In this document: positions 2,383 to 30,940 of the stretch, piece after piece
Numbering within the stretch: the stretch's first letter is position 1
How the letters are laid out: every line of letters starts with the position of its first letter
DNA from: Actinotalea soli
GTDB taxonomy: Bacteria; Actinomycetota; Actinomycetes; Actinomycetales; Cellulomonadaceae
DNA length: 64,000 nucleotides
Assembly: GCF_017565425.1 (NCBI RefSeq)
Contig: NZ_JAGEMK010000002.1
Coordinates: forward strand, 496,001-560,000
Reading direction: 5' to 3'
Made by a program: the position numbers and the translations under genes
The notes under the pieces: generated by a model
The model's database searches: none
The model's input: the letters and a program-made list of their open reading frames with translations, nothing else
What the model was told of the DNA's origin: nothing

Positions 2383-4125
2383 GTGACCACCCCATGCGAC
2401 GTGCTCGACCTGCCGGCCGACGTCGAGGACCTCGTGGCCTCCCTGCTCCACCCGGGAGGTATCCGGACGGTCTTCCAGCCCGTGGTGCGCGTGGCCGACG
2501 GCGTGATCATCGGCTACGAGGCGCTCTCCCGGTCGACCACGATGCCCCACCTGTCGCCCGCTGCCTGGCTCGAGGCGGCCGACGCCGTCGGACGGCGCCT
2601 GGAGGTCGAGCTGGCCTGCATGGCTGCGGTGTCCGACGCGGGGGACCCGCCGGACCGTGCGCTGATCTTCCTCAACGCCAGCCCCGACGTCGCGGTGGAC
2701 CCGCGCTTCGCCGAGCTCTGCGGCGCCCTGCCCCGGCACGTCATCGAGGTCACCGAGCACGTCGCCGTCGAGGACTACGAGCCGCTCCTCGAGGGCCTGC
2801 GTGCGCTGCGGGCGGGCGGGTCCCTGGTCGCCGTCGACGACGTCGGTGCCGGCTACGCGTCGATGTCCCACGTGCTGCAGCTGAGCCCCTCCTTCATCAA
2901 GCTCGACCGCTCCCTGGTCAGCGGCCTCGACGGGGATCCCCGACGTCGGGCCCTGGTCGAGGCCCTGCAGGCCTTCGCCGCGGCGAGCGGCGCCCTCACC
3001 ATCGCCGAGGGCGTCGAGACCGAGGCCGAGCTGCGCGCCCTGAGCGCCGCGGGGATCGACCTCGTCCAGGGCTACCTCCTGGCCCGGCCGCAGGAGCCGT
3101 GGGTCGAGGTCAGCGCCCAGGCCCGCAACGTCCTCCTCCCCGAGCCGGGTGCGCCCGAGGCCCTCGAGCCCGAGCAGCTCGCGGCGGCCCTCGACGGCGC
3201 GCGGACGCCCACCGAGGCGTGCGAGCTGGTCAGCCGGTACCTCTCGCACCAGGGCGGTCTGCTGCCCAGCGTCTACCTCGAGCGCGGCGGCGTGCTGCGC
3301 TGCCAGTCGCGGCGTGGTCAGTGGCTCGTCATGGACGGGCTCCGTCCCGGCGCGGGCATCAGCGGCACGGCCTTCGCCGAGGGGTGCGAGATCCTGTCGA
3401 CCGACGTCGCGAGCGACCCGCGGTACCGCCTGGCCGTCCCCGGGGTGAGCAGCGAGATGGCCGTGCCGCTCACCGTGGCGGGCCGGGTGGTAGGGGTGCT
3501 GAACGTCGACGCCCTCGCGCCGATCCTGCCCCGGCACGTCGAGGTGGTGCGCCTGTGCGGCAGGTTGCTCGAGGCACGGCTCGAGGAGCTCGACGCCTCG
3601 GGCTCGCCCAGCGCGATCCTGCACGACCTGAGCCGCCTGATGCCGACCCTCGCCGTCGCCGGGTCCGCCGAGGCCCTGGTCGACGCGACCCTCGCGGCGG
3701 TGGCCGAGCTGACCGGCTTCGACGCCGGGTGCGTGTGGAGCTTCGACGACGACGGCGCCCTCGACGTGGCCGGGACGATCGGCGACGGGGCTGCCGGGCT
3801 CACCGGCCTGCCCGACGCGCAGGTGCTCGCCCTGCGGGACCTCGTGGCCGACCTGGCCTCCTGCTACAGCGGCGGGACCGACCTGAGCCTGGCCGTGCCG
3901 CCGACCCACGTGCTGCGCGAGCGCGGGGCGCGGGGCGTGGTGCTCGTGCCGATCAGGGACGGCTGGGACCTCACCGACATGCTGGTGCTGACCAGCGGAG
4001 CGCGGTCCTTCGTGGCCCCCGACGTCGTGGACGCGGTCGAGGCCCTGTGCCTGCAGGCGGGAAGCCGGCTCGCGGCGCTGCGCCGGGTGGCCGAGCTCGA
4101 GGACCTGCTGGCCGCTCAGCGCTAG
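2383..4125 (+). CDS. EAL domain c-di-GMP phosphodiesterase with two GAF domains
   Basis: A 580-residue cytosolic protein with no membrane segment. Residues about 15-250 form an EAL domain that hydrolyses cyclic di-GMP to pGpG. The catalytic set looks intact: EAL at residues 46-48, the NASP Asn, VIEVTE, the VDDVGAGY loop, KLDR, AEGVETEAE and QGYLLARP. Residues about 265-400 and 405-575 each look like a GAF sensor, the second more diverged. There is no GGDEF domain. The GTG start has no ribosome site, but a sigma-28-like promoter sits just upstream, suggesting a leaderless transcript and a link to motility. It converges with the YciO-type gene with only 7 bases between them. Ligands of the GAF domains are unknown. 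Confidence 0.9.
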   Translation: MTTPCDVLDLPADVEDLVASLLHPGGIRTVFQPVVRVADGVIIGYEALSRSTTMPHLSPAAWLEAADAVGRRLEVELACMAAVSDAGDPPDRALIFLNASPDVAVDPRFAELCGALPRHVIEVTEHVAVEDYEPLLEGLRALRAGGSLVAVDDVGAGYASMSHVLQLSPSFIKLDRSLVSGLDGDPRRRALVEALQAFAAASGALTIAEGVETEAELRALSAAGIDLVQGYLLARPQEPWVEVSAQARNVLLPEPGAPEALEPEQLAAALDGARTPTEACELVSRYLSHQGGLLPSVYLERGGVLRCQSRRGQWLVMDGLRPGAGISGTAFAEGCEILSTDVASDPRYRLAVPGVSSEMAVPLTVAGRVVGVLNVDALAPILPRHVEVVRLCGRLLEARLEELDASGSPSAILHDLSRLMPTLAVAGSAEALVDATLAAVAELTGFDAGCVWSFDDDGALDVAGTIGDGAAGLTGLPDAQVLALRDLVADLASCYSGGTDLSLAVPPTHVLRERGARGVVLVPIRDGWDLTDMLVLTSGARSFVAPDVVDAVEALCLQAGSRLAALRRVAELEDLLAAQR

Positions 4126-4786: not shown

Positions 4787-5545
4787 TCAGGTGACCTCGC
4801 AGCGGCCGAGCTCACGGTCGAGGGCCTCGTGCTCGGCCTGGGTGGCCCACAGGCCGTGGGCCGCCTTCACCTCGATGAGGATGACCGCGTAGGCGCAGCG
4901 GAACCCCCGGTTGGGGGGCTGCCACGTCGCGGCGTCCGAGGCGCCCTTCTGCTGGTTCAGGTCCCCGTCGACGGCGAGAAGGTTCGCGGGGTCGTTCGCG
5001 AACTCCTGACGCTCCTCGGCGGTCCACTGCTGGGCGCCCTTCTGCCACGCGTCGGACAACGGCACGACGTGGTCGATCTGGACCTCGGCGCTGCGTTCGC
5101 CCCGCTCGAAGGCGATGGTCTCGCCCGAGTACGGGTCCAGGAGCGTGCCTGTGAGGACGACGCACCCCTGGGTGCCGTCCTTGACGGTGATGTCGGTGAG
5201 GTCCCGCGCCAGGATGTCGTTGCGGGTGTCGCAGCCGTTGCGGTCGACGTCGGCCCACGCGGGCCCGAACTGCTCGCGCTCGTACCCCGTCCGTGGTGCG
5301 CGGCCCTTGATCTCGATGGTGCCGAGCGCAGCCTCGACAGAGGCGAGGCGCTCGGCGCTCACCGTGACCAGGTACCCCGGAGGACGCGCCCCCAGGACGT
5401 CGGGCAGGCCCAGCTCCTCGCCCGTCTGCGTCGCGCTCAGCAGTGCACCCGCGAGCAGGACGACGACCGCCGTCGCGATCGAGGAGAGGCGGGCGTGGAC
5501 GTGCCTGCGCCGGGGGCTACGACGACGGGAACGGGGGCGGCTCAC
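4787..5545 (-). CDS. Exported or membrane-anchored HNH (DUF1524-type) endonuclease
   Basis: A 252-residue protein starting with an Arg-rich stretch (VSRPRSRRRSPRRR) and one hydrophobic segment near residues 20-40, so the C-terminal nuclease-like domain probably lies outside the membrane. The domain shows VQIDHVVPLSDAW (His of the HNH core), EFANDPANLL, NQQKGASDAATW and an aromatic-rich RFRCAY-like stretch, matching small actinobacterial HNH/DUF1524 proteins related to the GmrSD C-terminus. The GTG at 5543-5545 was chosen because upstream sequence looks non-coding; no good ribosome site is visible. It may degrade environmental DNA or act in interbacterial antagonism; this is inference. Confidence 0.8.
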   Translation of the reverse strand: MSRPRSRRRSPRRRHVHARLSSIATAVVVLLAGALLSATQTGEELGLPDVLGARPPGYLVTVSAERLASVEAALGTIEIKGRAPRTGYEREQFGPAWADVDRNGCDTRNDILARDLTDITVKDGTQGCVVLTGTLLDPYSGETIAFERGERSAEVQIDHVVPLSDAWQKGAQQWTAEERQEFANDPANLLAVDGDLNQQKGASDAATWQPPNRGFRCAYAVILIEVKAAHGLWATQAEHEALDRELGRCEVT

Positions 5546-13571: not shown

Positions 13572-14326
13572 TCGAGGTCACCGGCGCCACCAAGGCCTAC
13601 GGCACGGTGCGCGTGGTCGACGAGGTCGACCTGCGGCTGCCGCGCGGGGGGATCACCTCGATCATCGGGCCCAACGGCGCGGGCAAGTCGACCCTGCTGT
13701 CGATGATGAGCCGGCTGCTGCCGATGGACGCCGGGTCGGCGACGGTCGACGGTCTCGACGTGACCCGCACCCCGGGGGACGTGCTGGCCCGACGCCTGGC
13801 GACCCTGCGGCAGGACAACCACCTCACCGCCCGGCTGACCGTGCGGGACCTGGTCACCTTCGGACGGTTCCCCTGGTCGAAGGGCCGGCCCACCCTCGAG
13901 GACGCCGAGCACGTGGCCCGCTCCCTGGACTTCCTCGAGCTCGCGCCCTTCGCGGACCGGTTCCTCGACGAGCTCTCGGGCGGGCAGCGGCAGCGGGCCT
14001 TCGTCGCGATGGTGCTGTGCCAGGACACCGACTACGTGCTGCTCGACGAGCCGCTCAACAACCTGGACCTGCGCCACGCGGTGGCCATGATGCGGTTGCT
14101 GCGCCGGGCCGCCGACGAGCTGGGGCGGACGATCGTCGTCGTGCTGCACGACATCAACTTCGCGGCCCGCTACTCCGACCACGTGGTGGCCATGCGGGAC
14201 GGGGTGGTCGCCTACCAGGGCACCCCCGACGAGATCATCCGCACCGAGGTGCTGCGCGCGGTCTACGAGGTCGAGGTCGTCGTGCACCAGCTCGGCGGCC
14301 GCCCCGTCGCCGTCTGCACCGGCTGA
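13568..14326 (+). CDS. Siderophore ABC transporter ATP-binding protein
   Basis: A 252-residue ATPase with complete motifs: Walker A GPNGAGKST, Q-loop TLRQDNHLTARLTV, signature LSGGQRQRAF, Walker B YVLLDEP followed by NNLDLRH, and the switch His in VVVLHDINFAARY. It energises import by the two FecCD-type permeases upstream. The ATG overlaps the preceding stop (ATGA). The gene ends about 10 bases before a run of 50-bp palindromic repeats that may end its transcript. Confidence 0.95.
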   Translation: MIEVTGATKAYGTVRVVDEVDLRLPRGGITSIIGPNGAGKSTLLSMMSRLLPMDAGSATVDGLDVTRTPGDVLARRLATLRQDNHLTARLTVRDLVTFGRFPWSKGRPTLEDAEHVARSLDFLELAPFADRFLDELSGGQRQRAFVAMVLCQDTDYVLLDEPLNNLDLRHAVAMMRLLRRAADELGRTIVVVLHDINFAARYSDHVVAMRDGVVAYQGTPDEIIRTEVLRAVYEVEVVVHQLGGRPVAVCTG

Positions 14327-14353
14327 CCCGCCCACCTCGTTGTCAGAAGCGCT

Positions 14354-14464
14354 CTCGTGTCAGAAGCTGGGGTACCCAGGGGTATCTGAGGTTCTGACAC
14401 GAGATGGGCCCGATCTCGTGTCAGAAGGTGGGGTACCTAGGGGTATGCCAGGTTCTGACACGAG
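14354..14464. repeat. Palindromic repeat pair A (two 50-bp units)
   Basis: Units at 14354-14403 and 14415-14464 separated by 11 bases. Each has outer arms CTCGTGTCAGAA and TTCTGACACGAG (12-bp stem) around a core with GGTACCCAGGGGTAT or GGTACCTAGGGGTAT, itself a small inverted repeat. A degenerate extra left arm lies at 14336-14350. The pair sits between the convergent siderophore ATPase and lipoprotein genes, 14 bases past the latter's stop. Confidence 0.95.
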
Positions 14465-14478
14465 GTTGTGGGGGTGGG

Positions 14479-14958
14479 TCAGTCGTCGTCCTGGCAGAGC
14501 TCGGCGGTGACCTGCCCGTCCTCGAGCTCGACCTCGAGGTCCAGCTCGACCCCCTCGCGACGGAACTCGACCTCGACGTCGTCCCCGTCCGCGTCGGTCA
14601 CCTCGTGCTCCCAGCCGGCAGCCGGGCTGATGCCGCCCACGATCAGGCGGTCGCCCTCGACGCCGATGGTCGCGGTCCCGGCGTCGGCCACGGTGTAGAT
14701 GCCGTCCTCCGGCACCTCGAGGGTGACGCACTCCCCCGGGGCGGGGCTGGGTCCAGCACCGGGCACGGCGCCCTGGCCCTCGTCGTCGGTGGCGCCCTCC
14801 TCACCCTCGACGGCATCACCCTCGGTCGGGTTCTCGGTGGAGGTGTCGGTGCCGTCGACCGTCGCGCCGTCGATCTCGACGTCGTCGGGGGCGTCGGCGC
14901 TGCAGGCCGTCAACGCCAGGGCGGCGGCGCAGGTCAGGGCGGCAAGGCGGCGGTGCAT
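14479..14958 (-). CDS. Small acidic lipoprotein of unknown function
   Basis: A 159-residue predicted lipoprotein: MHRRLAALTCAAALALTAC gives a short signal peptide with lipobox LTAC at Cys19. Then follows a long acidic linker rich in Asp, Glu, Thr and Gly (residues 20-75) and a small beta-rich domain (about 76-159) with a Cys near each end (GECVTLEVPEDG, AELCQDDD) that may form a disulfide. I do not recognise the domain. The gene is flanked on both sides by pairs of the 50-bp palindromic repeat. Confidence 0.75.
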   Translation of the reverse strand: MHRRLAALTCAAALALTACSADAPDDVEIDGATVDGTDTSTENPTEGDAVEGEEGATDDEGQGAVPGAGPSPAPGECVTLEVPEDGIYTVADAGTATIGVEGDRLIVGGISPAAGWEHEVTDADGDDVEVEFRREGVELDLEVELEDGQVTAELCQDDD

Positions 14959-15029
14959 GGGGACTCCGGGTGCTCGGGGGACGCGTCGCCCCGAGCACAC
15001 CACGCGCCCGCCCGATCGGCATCCGGAAC

Positions 15030-15140
15030 CTCGTGTCAGAACCTGGAGTACCCAGGGGTATCCGAGGTTCTGACACGAGGCCTGAGCGATCTCGCGTCAG
15101 AGGCTGGAGTACCTAGAGGTATCCAGGGTTCTGACACGAG
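15030..15140. repeat. Palindromic repeat pair B (two 50-bp units)
   Basis: Units at 15030-15079 and 15091-15140, again with an 11-base spacer. The first keeps perfect 11- to 12-bp arms; the second has one changed base in the left arm (CTCGCGTCAG) and ACCTAGAGGTA in the core. The pair ends 20 bases after the stop of the EF-G-like gene and precedes the lipoprotein gene start. Confidence 0.95.
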
Positions 15141-15160
15141 AGGGGTGTGGGGGGCCGGGG

Positions 15161-17215
15161 TCAGGGGGTCAGGGCGGGGGTCGGGGCGGGGGCGTAGTGG
15201 GCGGGGGTCGCGGTGAAGGCACCGCGGCCGCCGGTGAGGGACCGCAGGTCGAGCACGTAGCGCGCGAGCTCGGCCTCGGGGACCAGGGCCTGGATGCGGC
15301 AGCGGCCGTCGGGCAGCAGGTCCGAGCCGCTGATCCGTCCGCGCCGTCCCGACAGGTCGCCCAGCACCTCGCCCTGGAGGTCGTTCGGCACCGTGACCTC
15401 GACCTCGTGCACCGGCTCGAGCAGCACCGTGCCGGCCCGGGTCAGGGCCTCGCGCACCCCGTTCCCGGCGGCGGTCCGGAAGGCCATGTCCGAGGAGTCC
15501 ACCGCGTGGTGCTTGCCGTCGTAGCACTCGACGACCACGTCGACCACGGGGTAGCCGTGCGGTCCGCCGGCCGCCAGCGCCTCCATGACCCCGCGCTCGA
15601 CGGCCGGCAGGAAGTGCCGCGGTACGGCCCCGCCGACCACCGAGTCCACGAAAGCGTTGCCCGCCCCGGGCTCCGCGGGCCGCACCCGCAGCTGCACGAC
15701 GGCGAACTGCCCGTGCCCACCCGACTGCTTCTTGACCTTGCCCTCGGCCTGCGCCGCCCCCGCGATCGTCTCCCGGTAGGCCACCCGCACCGGCTCGGTC
15801 GTGACCTGCACCCCGAGCTTGCGCGCGAGCCGCTCGACCGCGACGGCGAGGTGCAGGTCGCCGAGCCCGCGCAGCACGGTCTGGACCGGTCGCACGTCCA
15901 CGACCCGGTCGACGACGAGGGTCGGGTCCTCGGCGCACAGCCGCTGCAGGGCACCGGCGAGCTTGTCGTCGTCGGACTGGGTGACCGGCACCAGGGACAG
16001 CGCGTACGAGGCCGGACGGCGCGGGGGAGCGGGCAGCCGGACGGGGCGTCCACGCACGGCGAGCAGCGACCCGCTCGGCGAGTCGGCGAGCTTGGCCACG
16101 GCGGCGACCTCCCCGGCGGGCACCACCTGGACCGGCAGGTGCTCGGTGCCGCGCAGCCGGAACAGGCCGTGCAGCCGCTCCTCGTGCCCCGTGGTGGTGT
16201 TGACCAGCCGGTCGTCGTGACGCACGGTGCCGCTCAGGACGCGGAACACGGACACCTGTCCGACGAAGGGGTCGGTCACGGTGCGGAACACGTGCACGAG
16301 CGGCTCGCCGTCGGGGTCGGGGACCACCTCGAGGGAGGTGCCGCCCATCTCGACCTCGACCGGGCGTGGCGCCGGCCCGAGCTCGCCGATGAGGTCCGCG
16401 AGCCGGTCGATCCCCACGCCGGTGGTCCCCGAGCCGACCAGCACGGGGAAGGCCACGCCGTCGAGCACCTCGTGGGCGAGGGTCCGCTCGAGGTCTGCCG
16501 CGCTGGGCACCTCCCCGGTCAGGTAGCGCTCGAGCTGCTCGTCGTCCCCCGAGACGATCTCCTCGGTGACCTGCTCGTGCAGGGCGCGCTCCTCGACCGC
16601 GACGTCCTCGGGCAGGGGCTCGACGTGGTGGCTGCCGTCGGCGTCGTAGGCGAAGCCCTGGTCCGAGAGCACGTCGGCCACCCCGCGGAAGGCCTCCTCC
16701 TCCCCCAGGGGCAGCTCGAGGCAGACCAGGCCAGGCCCGACGGCGGCCTCCAGCTGCGCGAGCACGCGGTGGAAGTCGGCCCGCGGCTTGTCCTCCTTGG
16801 TGATGAAGACCAGCCGCGGCACCCCGGCCTCGGCGCAGCGGCGCCACACCGCCTCGGTGCCCACCTCGACGCCGTCGACCGCGCTCACCACGACCACCGC
16901 GAGGTCTGCGACGGCCAGGGCTGCGTCGACCCCGCCGGCGAAGTCCGCGTAGCCCGGGGTGTCGATCAGGGTGATGGCGTAGGTCTGGCCGTCGGTGGCC
17001 GTCCAGTCGAAGGGGGCGACCGCGGGGGTCAGGGACATGGCCCGGCGGATCTCCTCGGGGTCGGTGTCGCACACCGTGGTGCCGTCCTCGACGCGCCCGG
17101 CCCGGGGGATCACGCCTGCCCGGTGCAGCAGCGCCTCGGCCACCGTGGTCTTGCCGGCCCCGCTGTGGCCGACCAGGGCCACGGTGCGGATCCTCGGCGT
17201 CGTCGCCTGGTCCAT
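15161..17215 (-). CDS. Elongation factor G-like GTPase (EF-G2 type)
   Basis: A 684-residue translational GTPase with the domain order of EF-G. G-motifs: P-loop GHSGAGKTT near residue 16, switch DGTTVCDTDPEE, G3 DTPGY, and G4 as TKED instead of the canonical NKxD. Later domains are recognisable by FVGQVSVFRVLSGT (domain II), YRETIAGAAQAEGKVKKQSGGHGQFA (domain IV) and EVTVPNDLQGEVLGDLSGRRGRI (domain V). This is the actinobacterial EF-G-like paralogue, whose role (possibly ribosome-related stress) is uncertain. The ATG at 17213-17215 follows GAGGGAG. No ribosomal genes are nearby. Confidence 0.88.
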   Translation of the reverse strand: MDQATTPRIRTVALVGHSGAGKTTVAEALLHRAGVIPRAGRVEDGTTVCDTDPEEIRRAMSLTPAVAPFDWTATDGQTYAITLIDTPGYADFAGGVDAALAVADLAVVVVSAVDGVEVGTEAVWRRCAEAGVPRLVFITKEDKPRADFHRVLAQLEAAVGPGLVCLELPLGEEEAFRGVADVLSDQGFAYDADGSHHVEPLPEDVAVEERALHEQVTEEIVSGDDEQLERYLTGEVPSAADLERTLAHEVLDGVAFPVLVGSGTTGVGIDRLADLIGELGPAPRPVEVEMGGTSLEVVPDPDGEPLVHVFRTVTDPFVGQVSVFRVLSGTVRHDDRLVNTTTGHEERLHGLFRLRGTEHLPVQVVPAGEVAAVAKLADSPSGSLLAVRGRPVRLPAPPRRPASYALSLVPVTQSDDDKLAGALQRLCAEDPTLVVDRVVDVRPVQTVLRGLGDLHLAVAVERLARKLGVQVTTEPVRVAYRETIAGAAQAEGKVKKQSGGHGQFAVVQLRVRPAEPGAGNAFVDSVVGGAVPRHFLPAVERGVMEALAAGGPHGYPVVDVVVECYDGKHHAVDSSDMAFRTAAGNGVREALTRAGTVLLEPVHEVEVTVPNDLQGEVLGDLSGRRGRISGSDLLPDGRCRIQALVPEAELARYVLDLRSLTGGRGAFTATPAHYAPAPTPALTP

Positions 17216-17307
17216 GACGGATCTCCCTCGTCGGAGTGGCCCTTGGACGAAGGCTAGCCACCCGGCGCCCGTCCCGACAGGACCAACGACCGTTCCCCCT
17301 CCCCACC

Positions 17308-17418
17308 CTCGTGTCAGACCCTCAGGTGCCCAGGGGTATCCGAGGTTCTGACACGAGGTGAGCGCCATCTCGTGTCAGAAGCCCAGGTACCCAGGGGTAT
17401 CCCAGGTTCTGACACGAG
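17308..17418. repeat. Palindromic repeat pair C (two 50-bp units)
   Basis: Units at 17308-17357 and 17369-17418 with an 11-base spacer. The first left arm ends in AC rather than AA; otherwise arms and the TACCCAGGGGTAT-like core are kept (TGCCCAGGGGTAT in the first). The pair lies 31 bases past the GH18 stop and before the EF-G-like gene. Confidence 0.95.
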
Positions 17419-17449
17419 AGGAGGGGGAGGGGGCGGGGGTGGGGTGGGG

Positions 17450-19015
17450 TCAGGCTCCGGGGTGGATGAGGACCCAGGGGGATCCGCCCTGGACGGGGGT
17501 GCCGGGCTCCTGGCCCTGGGACCACCACTTGGCCTCGTAGGGCACGCCGTCGAGCAGCACGCGGGTCCCTGCGGTGTACGGCTCCTCGGGGTCCCACGCG
17601 GGGTAGGTGCCCTCGGGCAGGGTGGGCAGCGGCGCGGGGGTGTCCCCGGGGAGCACGGGCCCGACCAGGGTCCACGGTGCGTCCCCGCCGGCCCCGGCCG
17701 CCCCTGGCGTCACGCCCGAGGTCCAGTACCGGGCCTGGTACACCTGCTTCTGCCAGACGATCTTGGTGCCGCCCGGGTAGGTGCCCAGCGGGTCCCAGAT
17801 GGGGAAGGGGCTGGTCTCCGGGTCGTCGACGACCTCCCCGGCCGGACCGGTCGACGGCGCCGGCACGACGGCGGGGCTCGCGCTCGGCGCGCTCTCGGGG
17901 GCGGGCACGGCGGGCCTCGAGGCGAGGTCCGCCGAGAGCACCTCGGCGAACCTCGAGGCCCCCTGGTCGATCCCGCTGCACGAGGTCTGCACCACCGTGA
18001 GGACCGTGGGCAGCGGGGCCGTGCAGGTCGAGTCGCGGTTGAGGGACCACATGGCCACCTGCCCGACGGCGACGTCCTGCGCGAACTGGTTGACCACCTC
18101 GGCGTCCTCGACCGTGAACACCTCGGTGGCGACGTCGCTCTGGCCGATCATCGGCGTGATGCCGACCTTGGCCCACGCGTCGTTCTCGCTGAGGCTCTGC
18201 CCGGCGTCGGCGAACGCGGCCCGCACCTGGCCGTGCAGGGCCTTCGACGCCTCGACCACGACGTCGGACAACGGGGCGGACTCGCTGGTCACGACGCCGA
18301 AGTCCATCGTCATGCCGTTGACCCCGGCGACGTCGACCCCTGCCGCGAGCATGGTGGTCACGGCTGCGAGGCCCTCCGCCGTCAGACCCGTGGGCGCGAC
18401 GGGCAGGGTGAGCCACACCGCGAGGGACTCGTCGGCCGCTGCGGCCTCCTCCTGGATCTGCCGGATGGCCTCGGCGCGGCGCTCGGACCCCTCGACGTCC
18501 TGCAGGGTCGCTCCCTCGAGGTCGAGGTCGATGCTGGTGAGCTCGTAGCGGTCGATGACCTCCTGGTAGGCGTCGACCAGGTCCTCGGTGTCGGTGCAGG
18601 CCGTGCCCAGCTCCGTGCCGAGCTGCCCACCGAAGGAGACCCGGGCCTGGCCCCCGGTCAGCCGCAGCTGGGAGACGCGACGGTCGAGCTCGATCTCCGA
18701 GGCGGCCTCGTCGAGGGAGTAGTACCCGCCCCAGCTCGGGGCGCACCCGCGCTCGGGGTCGGCGACCACGAAGGACAGGACGACGTTGGCCTCCTCGGGC
18801 CCGCTCGGCGTCTCGAAGGGGTAGGGCGGCCAGGCGGTGACGTCCACGTAGGCCGCGAAGACGGCGGGGTCGGGCTCGTCGAGCTGGGTGACCGCGGCCG
18901 AGACCGTGCGGTACCCGCCCCAGCTCACCGCGACGGTGCAGACCAGGACGACGAGCACGCGCAGCCAGGAGATGCGGGTGCGGGGGCGCTGGGGGGCGAG
19001 GGCGGGAGTGCTCAT
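17450..19015 (-). CDS. Membrane-anchored GH18-type glycosidase with two chitin-binding modules
   Basis: A 521-residue protein with a single N-terminal membrane segment (about residues 15-40) and the rest outside the cell. Residues about 50-370 form a GH18 chitinase-like barrel; the catalytic strand reads SIDLDLEG with Asp163, Asp165 and Glu167 in the DxDxE arrangement. After a Pro/Ala-rich linker come two CBM5/12-like modules, about 415-460 (WDPLGTYPGGTKIVWQKQVYQARYW) and 480-521 (WDPEEPYTAGTRVLLDGVPYEAKWW). Such domains act on or bind GlcNAc-containing glycans. The gene lies 52 bases downstream of a processive GT2 synthase gene, suggesting it trims or releases that enzyme's product. Confidence 0.85.
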   Translation of the reverse strand: MSTPALAPQRPRTRISWLRVLVVLVCTVAVSWGGYRTVSAAVTQLDEPDPAVFAAYVDVTAWPPYPFETPSGPEEANVVLSFVVADPERGCAPSWGGYYSLDEAASEIELDRRVSQLRLTGGQARVSFGGQLGTELGTACTDTEDLVDAYQEVIDRYELTSIDLDLEGATLQDVEGSERRAEAIRQIQEEAAAADESLAVWLTLPVAPTGLTAEGLAAVTTMLAAGVDVAGVNGMTMDFGVVTSESAPLSDVVVEASKALHGQVRAAFADAGQSLSENDAWAKVGITPMIGQSDVATEVFTVEDAEVVNQFAQDVAVGQVAMWSLNRDSTCTAPLPTVLTVVQTSCSGIDQGASRFAEVLSADLASRPAVPAPESAPSASPAVVPAPSTGPAGEVVDDPETSPFPIWDPLGTYPGGTKIVWQKQVYQARYWTSGVTPGAAGAGGDAPWTLVGPVLPGDTPAPLPTLPEGTYPAWDPEEPYTAGTRVLLDGVPYEAKWWSQGQEPGTPVQGGSPWVLIHPGA

Positions 19016-30834: not shown

Positions 30835-30881
30835 GATCGGGGTCGATCAGGGTCGCCATGTGACCCGAACCGACCCCGATC
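30835..30881. repeat. Second-family palindromic repeat, unit 1
   Basis: GATCGGGGTCG (30835-30845) and its exact complement (30871-30881) form an 11-bp outer stem around an inner GGGTC/GACCC stem. It lies 60 bases past the stop of the 122-residue gene. The nested-stem layout echoes the 50-bp repeats at 14-17 kb though the sequence differs. Confidence 0.85.
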
Positions 30882-30894
30882 AGGGGGGCGCCGC

Positions 30895-30940
30895 GATCGG
30901 GGTCGATCGGGGGCGTTACCTGGCCCCTGTCGACCCCGAC
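30895..30940. repeat. Second-family palindromic repeat, unit 2, overlapping the GH2 gene end
   Basis: TCGGGGTCGA near 30897-30906 pairs with TCGACCCCGA at 30930-30939, with an inner GGGGC/GCCCC stem. The right half encodes the last residues (about GSTGAR) and the TAA stop of the minus-strand GH2 gene. Confidence 0.8.

Follow-up and report, generated by a model that had tools for sequence, protein, structure and literature searches.

Palindrome pairs in the window

The window, a 64,000-bp stretch (C22:496001-560000) of the 3.63 Mb Actinotalea soli genome (G000), contains three pairs of palindromic units, each pair shortly beyond the stop of a minus-strand gene. The features of the region are listed below, together with their state in the sister species G005 (Actinotalea sp. 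C106).

14326: end of a plus-strand ABC-transporter ORF
14336-14350: degenerate solo arm CTCGTTGTCAGAAGC, remnant of a unit; missing in G005
14354-14403: unit 1a, 50-bp palindrome; 42-bp core TGTCAGA..TCTGACA at 14358-14399; fold z -8.35
14404-14414: spacer of pair 1, 11 bp
14415-14464: unit 1b, 50-bp palindrome; ends 14 bp beyond the stop of the minus-strand ORF 14479-15003
15030-15079: unit 2a, 50-bp palindrome; intact in G005
15091-15140: unit 2b, 50-bp palindrome with one arm mismatch; ends 20 bp beyond the stop of the minus-strand EF-G-like ORF
17308-17357: unit 3a, 50-bp palindrome; G005 has a single unit at this site
17369-17418: unit 3b, 50-bp palindrome; ends 31 bp beyond the stop of the minus-strand ORF 17450-19015

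An earlier sequence-only reading had described six 50-bp palindromes in three pairs with 11-base spacers, lying 14-31 bases past three stops, and a degenerate extra arm. All were recovered: each unit is exactly 50 bp, the spacer is 11 bp in all three pairs, the measured distances are 14, 20 and 31 bp, and the extra arm is present, although absent from G005. Module 1 (units 1a and 1b) lies between convergent genes, since the ABC-transporter ORF ends at 14326. Chance is excluded as the origin of the units: the window has 13 occurrences of CTCGTGTCAGA with at most one mismatch, compared with 1.7 in shuffled sequence, and every unit folds far better than its shuffles (z -5.4 to -8.4), forming a strong hairpin.

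Distribution of the units in the genome

One observation that would have told against the sequence-only reading, a unit absent from the rest of the genome, is contradicted by the copy number. Defined as exactly 50 bp with at most three mismatches in 22 arm bases, 72 units were counted in G000 and none of the reversed control pattern; the total is about 75. Unit analyses cover the stretches fetched around hits, comprising 68 units, or 72 with the nuclease locus described below. Nearly all arms of the fetched units have 0 or 1 mismatch, and no tail of decayed copies reaches chance level in these stretches. Of the arms and shared core read from the six units, the 11-bp arms proved essentially invariant genome-wide; the interior is variable, and the TACCCAGGGGTA core is one of several. 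The spacing inside pairs is 11, sometimes 12, bp. At the level of sequence, the units thus constitute a dispersed palindrome family of fixed geometry. Units were absent from the viral contigs searched, and an Rfam search of the units returned only two miRNA matches, far below the gathering score. At L086, two unit pairs (3509-3619 and 5298-5408) are near-identical even in the spacer (cctggcgtggt), which suggests recent copying of the whole pair.

With gene calls from a simple script, the intergenic clusters of G000 comprise 15 in convergent, 23 in tandem and 2 in divergent gaps (for comparison, 8 of the 22 gaps in the window are divergent), at a median distance of 17 bp from the stop. Eight clusters lie inside called ORFs, one of which (L072) is probably spurious. 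The proximity to stops, the scarcity in divergent gaps and the strong hairpins are as expected of host-selected 3'-end elements, either terminators or mRNA-stabilising hairpins, that spread genome-wide and follow the nuclease gene by coincidence. A scan for intrinsic terminators (hairpin plus T-run) yielded 0 sites in 13800-17800, the units lack a T-tract and intact units occur within reading frames, and the paired terminators suggested from the sequence are accordingly not supported. The broader explanation by host elements is also unlikely: the unit is missing from 17 of the 18 other congeners searched, and the two-sided matched palindromes with lineage-following ends (see below) would be left unexplained.

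Units inside protein genes

Clear in-gene units of G000 are found in the genes of an HrpA-type helicase (two), Mfd, an Fe-S/CCG protein and a 2-oxoacid dehydrogenase E2 (three), and all are read in the frame L-(V/A)-S-(E/D)...S-D-T. In G023, which belongs to another genus, the HrpA, Mfd and E2 genes also carry that genome's own units in the same frame. One of the three frames of the unit holds a stop (TGA) and two are open; a single open frame is used by 22 of the 22 clearly internal units outside G005, a count that includes tandem copies, which are not independent. The usual spacing of in-gene neighbours is 60, 63 or 72 bp, all multiples of 3, as against 61-62 bp for intergenic pairs.

The Mfd unit (L087 2453-2502) can be compared with the sister species (L158), where the linker is nearly equal in length and different in sequence; the difference is probably one of replacement and not of simple insertion. 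In the HrpA orthologue of G017 (L103), a different tandem repeat of ~27-30 bp occupies the linker that holds the unit in G000.

A wider palindrome family across the class

The 42-bp frame TGTCAGA-N28-TCTGACA occurs patchily elsewhere in the class, in further genera and families, with a palindromic interior that is genome-specific. Copies number 34 in G023, 24 in G125, 22 in G265 and 16 in G194, with 0 in controls, and the copy number among genomes ranges from 1 to ~75. Neighbouring copies in other genomes show a 61-62-bp period, so that a spacing of ~61 bp recurs across genera. The invariant ends were narrowed to TGTCAG and CTGACA (core TGTCAG-N30-CTGACA), because the palindromes bracketing three newly found nuclease genes, described below, have the ends TGTCAGG or TGTCAGT.

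A predicted nuclease gene bracketed by the palindromes

RAYTs are the enzymes recognised as partners of dispersed palindromes in bacteria. The sequence-only reading had proposed looking for a RAYT-type transposase gene; none was found, as a Y1/RAYT (PF01797) search gave no match in G000 and positive results in control genomes. The units begin with CTCGTGTCAGA and end with its complement, and carry no GTAG/CGTC tag. Classical REP/BIME elements moved by a missed or lost RAYT would share the layout seen here (dispersed palindromes, pairs, 3'-end location, in-gene copies), yet the lack of a Y1 domain and of the tag, and the occupation of the RAYT's place by a different gene family in many genomes, make this origin very improbable.

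That gene family was identified by comparing the proteins encoded near units across genomes, in which it alone stood out. In G000, G194 and G265 the gene is single-copy, with units immediately on either side, and the G125 member adjoins one unit at a contig end; the four genomes belong to different families. In G000, the gene of the first repeat family (C32:155429-156361) lies outside the window and has pairs of its own palindrome on both sides; the gene-bearing form was found in this genome in one copy per repeat type.

The protein has ~310 residues, with an AbiEi-like N-terminus, a DUF559-like nuclease part and conserved E..D..ExD residues. Alignment of the G000, G194, G265 and G125 proteins shows an invariant E, D and E-x-D-G, and among 63 members the acidic catalytic-type residues E210, D242, E256 and D258 are conserved at 94-100%. 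The Pfam signal is faint: PF04480 is matched by 6 and AbiEi_4 by 10 of 26 members, the G000 member matching neither, and an NCBIfam search of family members gave no match. A 26-member profile matched a solved DUF559-type relative, the endonuclease-like 3hrl, with its C-terminal part (E 5e-4), and PvuRts1I weakly. The partner is a predicted DUF559-like nuclease, unrelated to RAYT. A profile match at E<=1e-30 is found in 128 of the 395 sampled genomes of the class.

A distant second homologue in G000 (C22:271080-271961, L289) is flanked by CGGGGTCGA palindromes. A second repeat family was predicted from these flanks and was found in the window as a pair with a 60-bp period (control 0):

30838-30878: second-family unit, 41 bp, CGGGGTCGA..CCGACCCCG; fold z -4.89
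30898-30938: second unit of this pair

At L078 (5719-6041), four second-family copies lie near a first-family unit, and the last three of these repeat every 82 bp.

Association of gene and palindrome

When 59 relatives were searched with the protein profile alone, scores above 340 bits were obtained only in G000, G023, G027 and G021, all of which bear units, and each of the three new genes (G023, G027, G021) is the centre of a palindrome bracket with the ends given above. Presence of the gene and presence of units are correlated among relatives (p 6e-4). Across the 395 genomes, strong protein matches are over-represented in genomes that bear units (p 1e-8), and most are bracketed. Units can also exist without a detected nuclease gene: G005 carries 31 and G020 carries 8 without a strong match.

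Distant members are flanked by palindromes with other ends, the left matching the right (TGGATGGG, CTTGGAAG, CGTCATACG, GGAAGGGTT and more). Counting only loci with both flanks available and processing control genes identically, matched palindromes were detected on both sides at 64 of 88 family loci and 4 of 197 control genes (Fisher 3e-38); no matched pair was detected at the other 24 family loci, and a null of mispaired loci gave 41/600. Palindrome-end similarity rises with protein similarity (Mantel p 0.001). Bracketing and lineage-following ends are thus, like the nuclease-type residues, features that the sequences themselves display.

A prediction from the flanks of one clade also held. 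GTCATRCG-N24-CGYATGAC is dispersed in ten genomes (25, 25, 21, 13, 8, 7 and fewer copies), with a single copy in one further genome; the reversed control was 0 everywhere and the motif was absent from five added genomes of other families. Some copies form pairs 61-63 bp apart.

Gain, loss and probable replacement in the sister species

The flanks of the units are 94% identical in G005 and G000. For 21 aligned units, differences between the species amount to 1.3% in the arms (6 of 462 positions, a figure that tends to be too low, as most of the G005 loci had been picked out by exact arm sequence), 16.3% in the interior and 5.9% in the flanks. Among G005 loci located by flanks alone, many are empty and some decayed. 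From these differences and the empty and decayed loci it follows that units have been gained and lost between the two species, and have probably been replaced by other copies. One fairly clean empty site (L081 vs L150) shows no adjacent duplication; the other empty sites are messy, with an insertion boundary that cannot be fixed.

At two loci, genes lie between two units where the other species has just the 11-12-bp spacer: a PadR-like regulator and a membrane protein (L072 2920-3030 vs L048 835-2521), and MarR-like and NADPH-reductase-like genes (L093 2415-3751 vs L051 3953-4064), all assigned by eye. Units may flag positions where genes are gained or lost. A reading of these genes as integron cassettes was rejected, as the junctions fit ordinary indels at gene ends.

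The constancy of the arms, read with the bias just stated, and the recurrence of the ~61 bp pair spacing across genera might instead indicate that nuclease and palindromes form a host-beneficial system of binding sites, serving for instance to mark own against foreign DNA or to organise the chromosome, and maintained by selection and not by selfish spreading. Little weight is given to this proposal, in view of the patchy presence and wide range of copy number, the units that G005 keeps without the gene, the location of in-gene copies in linkers, and an interior that diverges faster than the flanks, which fits replacement by other copies.

Proposed explanation

The units are probably the non-autonomous, dispersed part of a two-part selfish system that is REP/RAYT-like and built on an unrelated nuclease. 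With somewhat less assurance, the widespread actinobacterial family with an AbiEi-like N-terminus and a DUF559-like nuclease is judged to be a non-HUH counterpart of the RAYTs, each member recognising and spreading a short palindrome of its own and thereby giving rise to many unrelated repeat families, including in-frame protein inserts.

We infer that the nuclease moves the repeats. Each repeat family would have one nuclease gene, bracketed by pairs of its own palindrome. The ends of the cognate palindrome may be a symmetric recognition site for the nuclease, which would nick or cut there; repair or replication could then copy the palindrome to new places or replace existing copies. Copies would persist where they are harmless, directly after stops and in protein linkers, the latter in the single frame x-S-(E/D)...S-D-(T/S/K).

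Compensatory pairing of the unit halves is at or below that of shuffles in G000, G005, G125 and G174, and covariation is positive only in G194, G265 and G023, where mixing of subfamilies may account for it. In the first four genomes, covariation as proof of a hairpin is unsupported. As the unit is symmetric and, in G000, shows no covariation between its halves, recognition of a duplex inverted repeat by a dimer is at least as plausible as recognition of a hairpin.

If the proposal is true, a second, unrelated nuclease family has its own repeats, and such a lifestyle arose independently; a common protein family of unknown function would gain a role, and in actinobacteria many species-specific repeats, and many in-frame inserts in proteins, would be accounted for. 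As each gene would name its own target, the spread of short palindromes could then be tested in laboratory strains. A literature search, with subscription papers and preprints outside its scope, found no such repeat-nuclease system, and no mention of repeats in the titles and listed abstracts of papers that name DUF559; a REP-like spreading-repeat system of this kind is apparently undescribed so far.

Comparison with known systems

REP/BIME (REPIN) repeats and their RAYT (TnpA_REP) transposases form 'REPtrons' (PMC6006769, PMC3733652), and the definition of a REP includes a GTAG or CGTC tetranucleotide tag at one palindrome end (PMC3733652). The suggestion of REP/BIME elements in the sequence-only reading survives as an analogy and fails as a statement of membership. 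Like REPs, the units are many, short, dispersed, mainly extragenic, located at 3' ends and often paired, with some copies in genes, and as a rule a single dedicated gene has these palindromes on its flanks, each gene lineage with a repeat of its own. The dedicated gene is of a different family, however: its product is a DUF559-like nuclease with an AbiEi-like N-terminus, not an HUH-Y1 enzyme. Here, in addition, the tag is absent, the hosts are Actinobacteria, the pair period is ~61 bp, and the palindrome is symmetric and near-fixed in length (core 42 bp, ~50 bp extended), with invariant ends and a free interior.

In-gene copies are known for both REPs and Rickettsia palindromic elements (RPEs). 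The units share with RPEs the trait of palindromes in frame inside protein-coding genes, and no sequence relation is claimed; sequence and host are unrelated, the copies here lie mostly between genes, and there is a known nuclease gene that they bracket. As with MITEs and insertion sequences, short non-autonomous copies stand beside a complete element with the same ends, but here the whole unit is palindrome, with no central region and no clear target duplication. To the Vsr-like (EDxHD) homing endonucleases, presumably, and to the DUF559 nucleases a distant relation in fold is suggested by the conserved residues and the 3hrl match; what sets the present family apart is that it has no intron or intein host and is tied to its own palindrome family.
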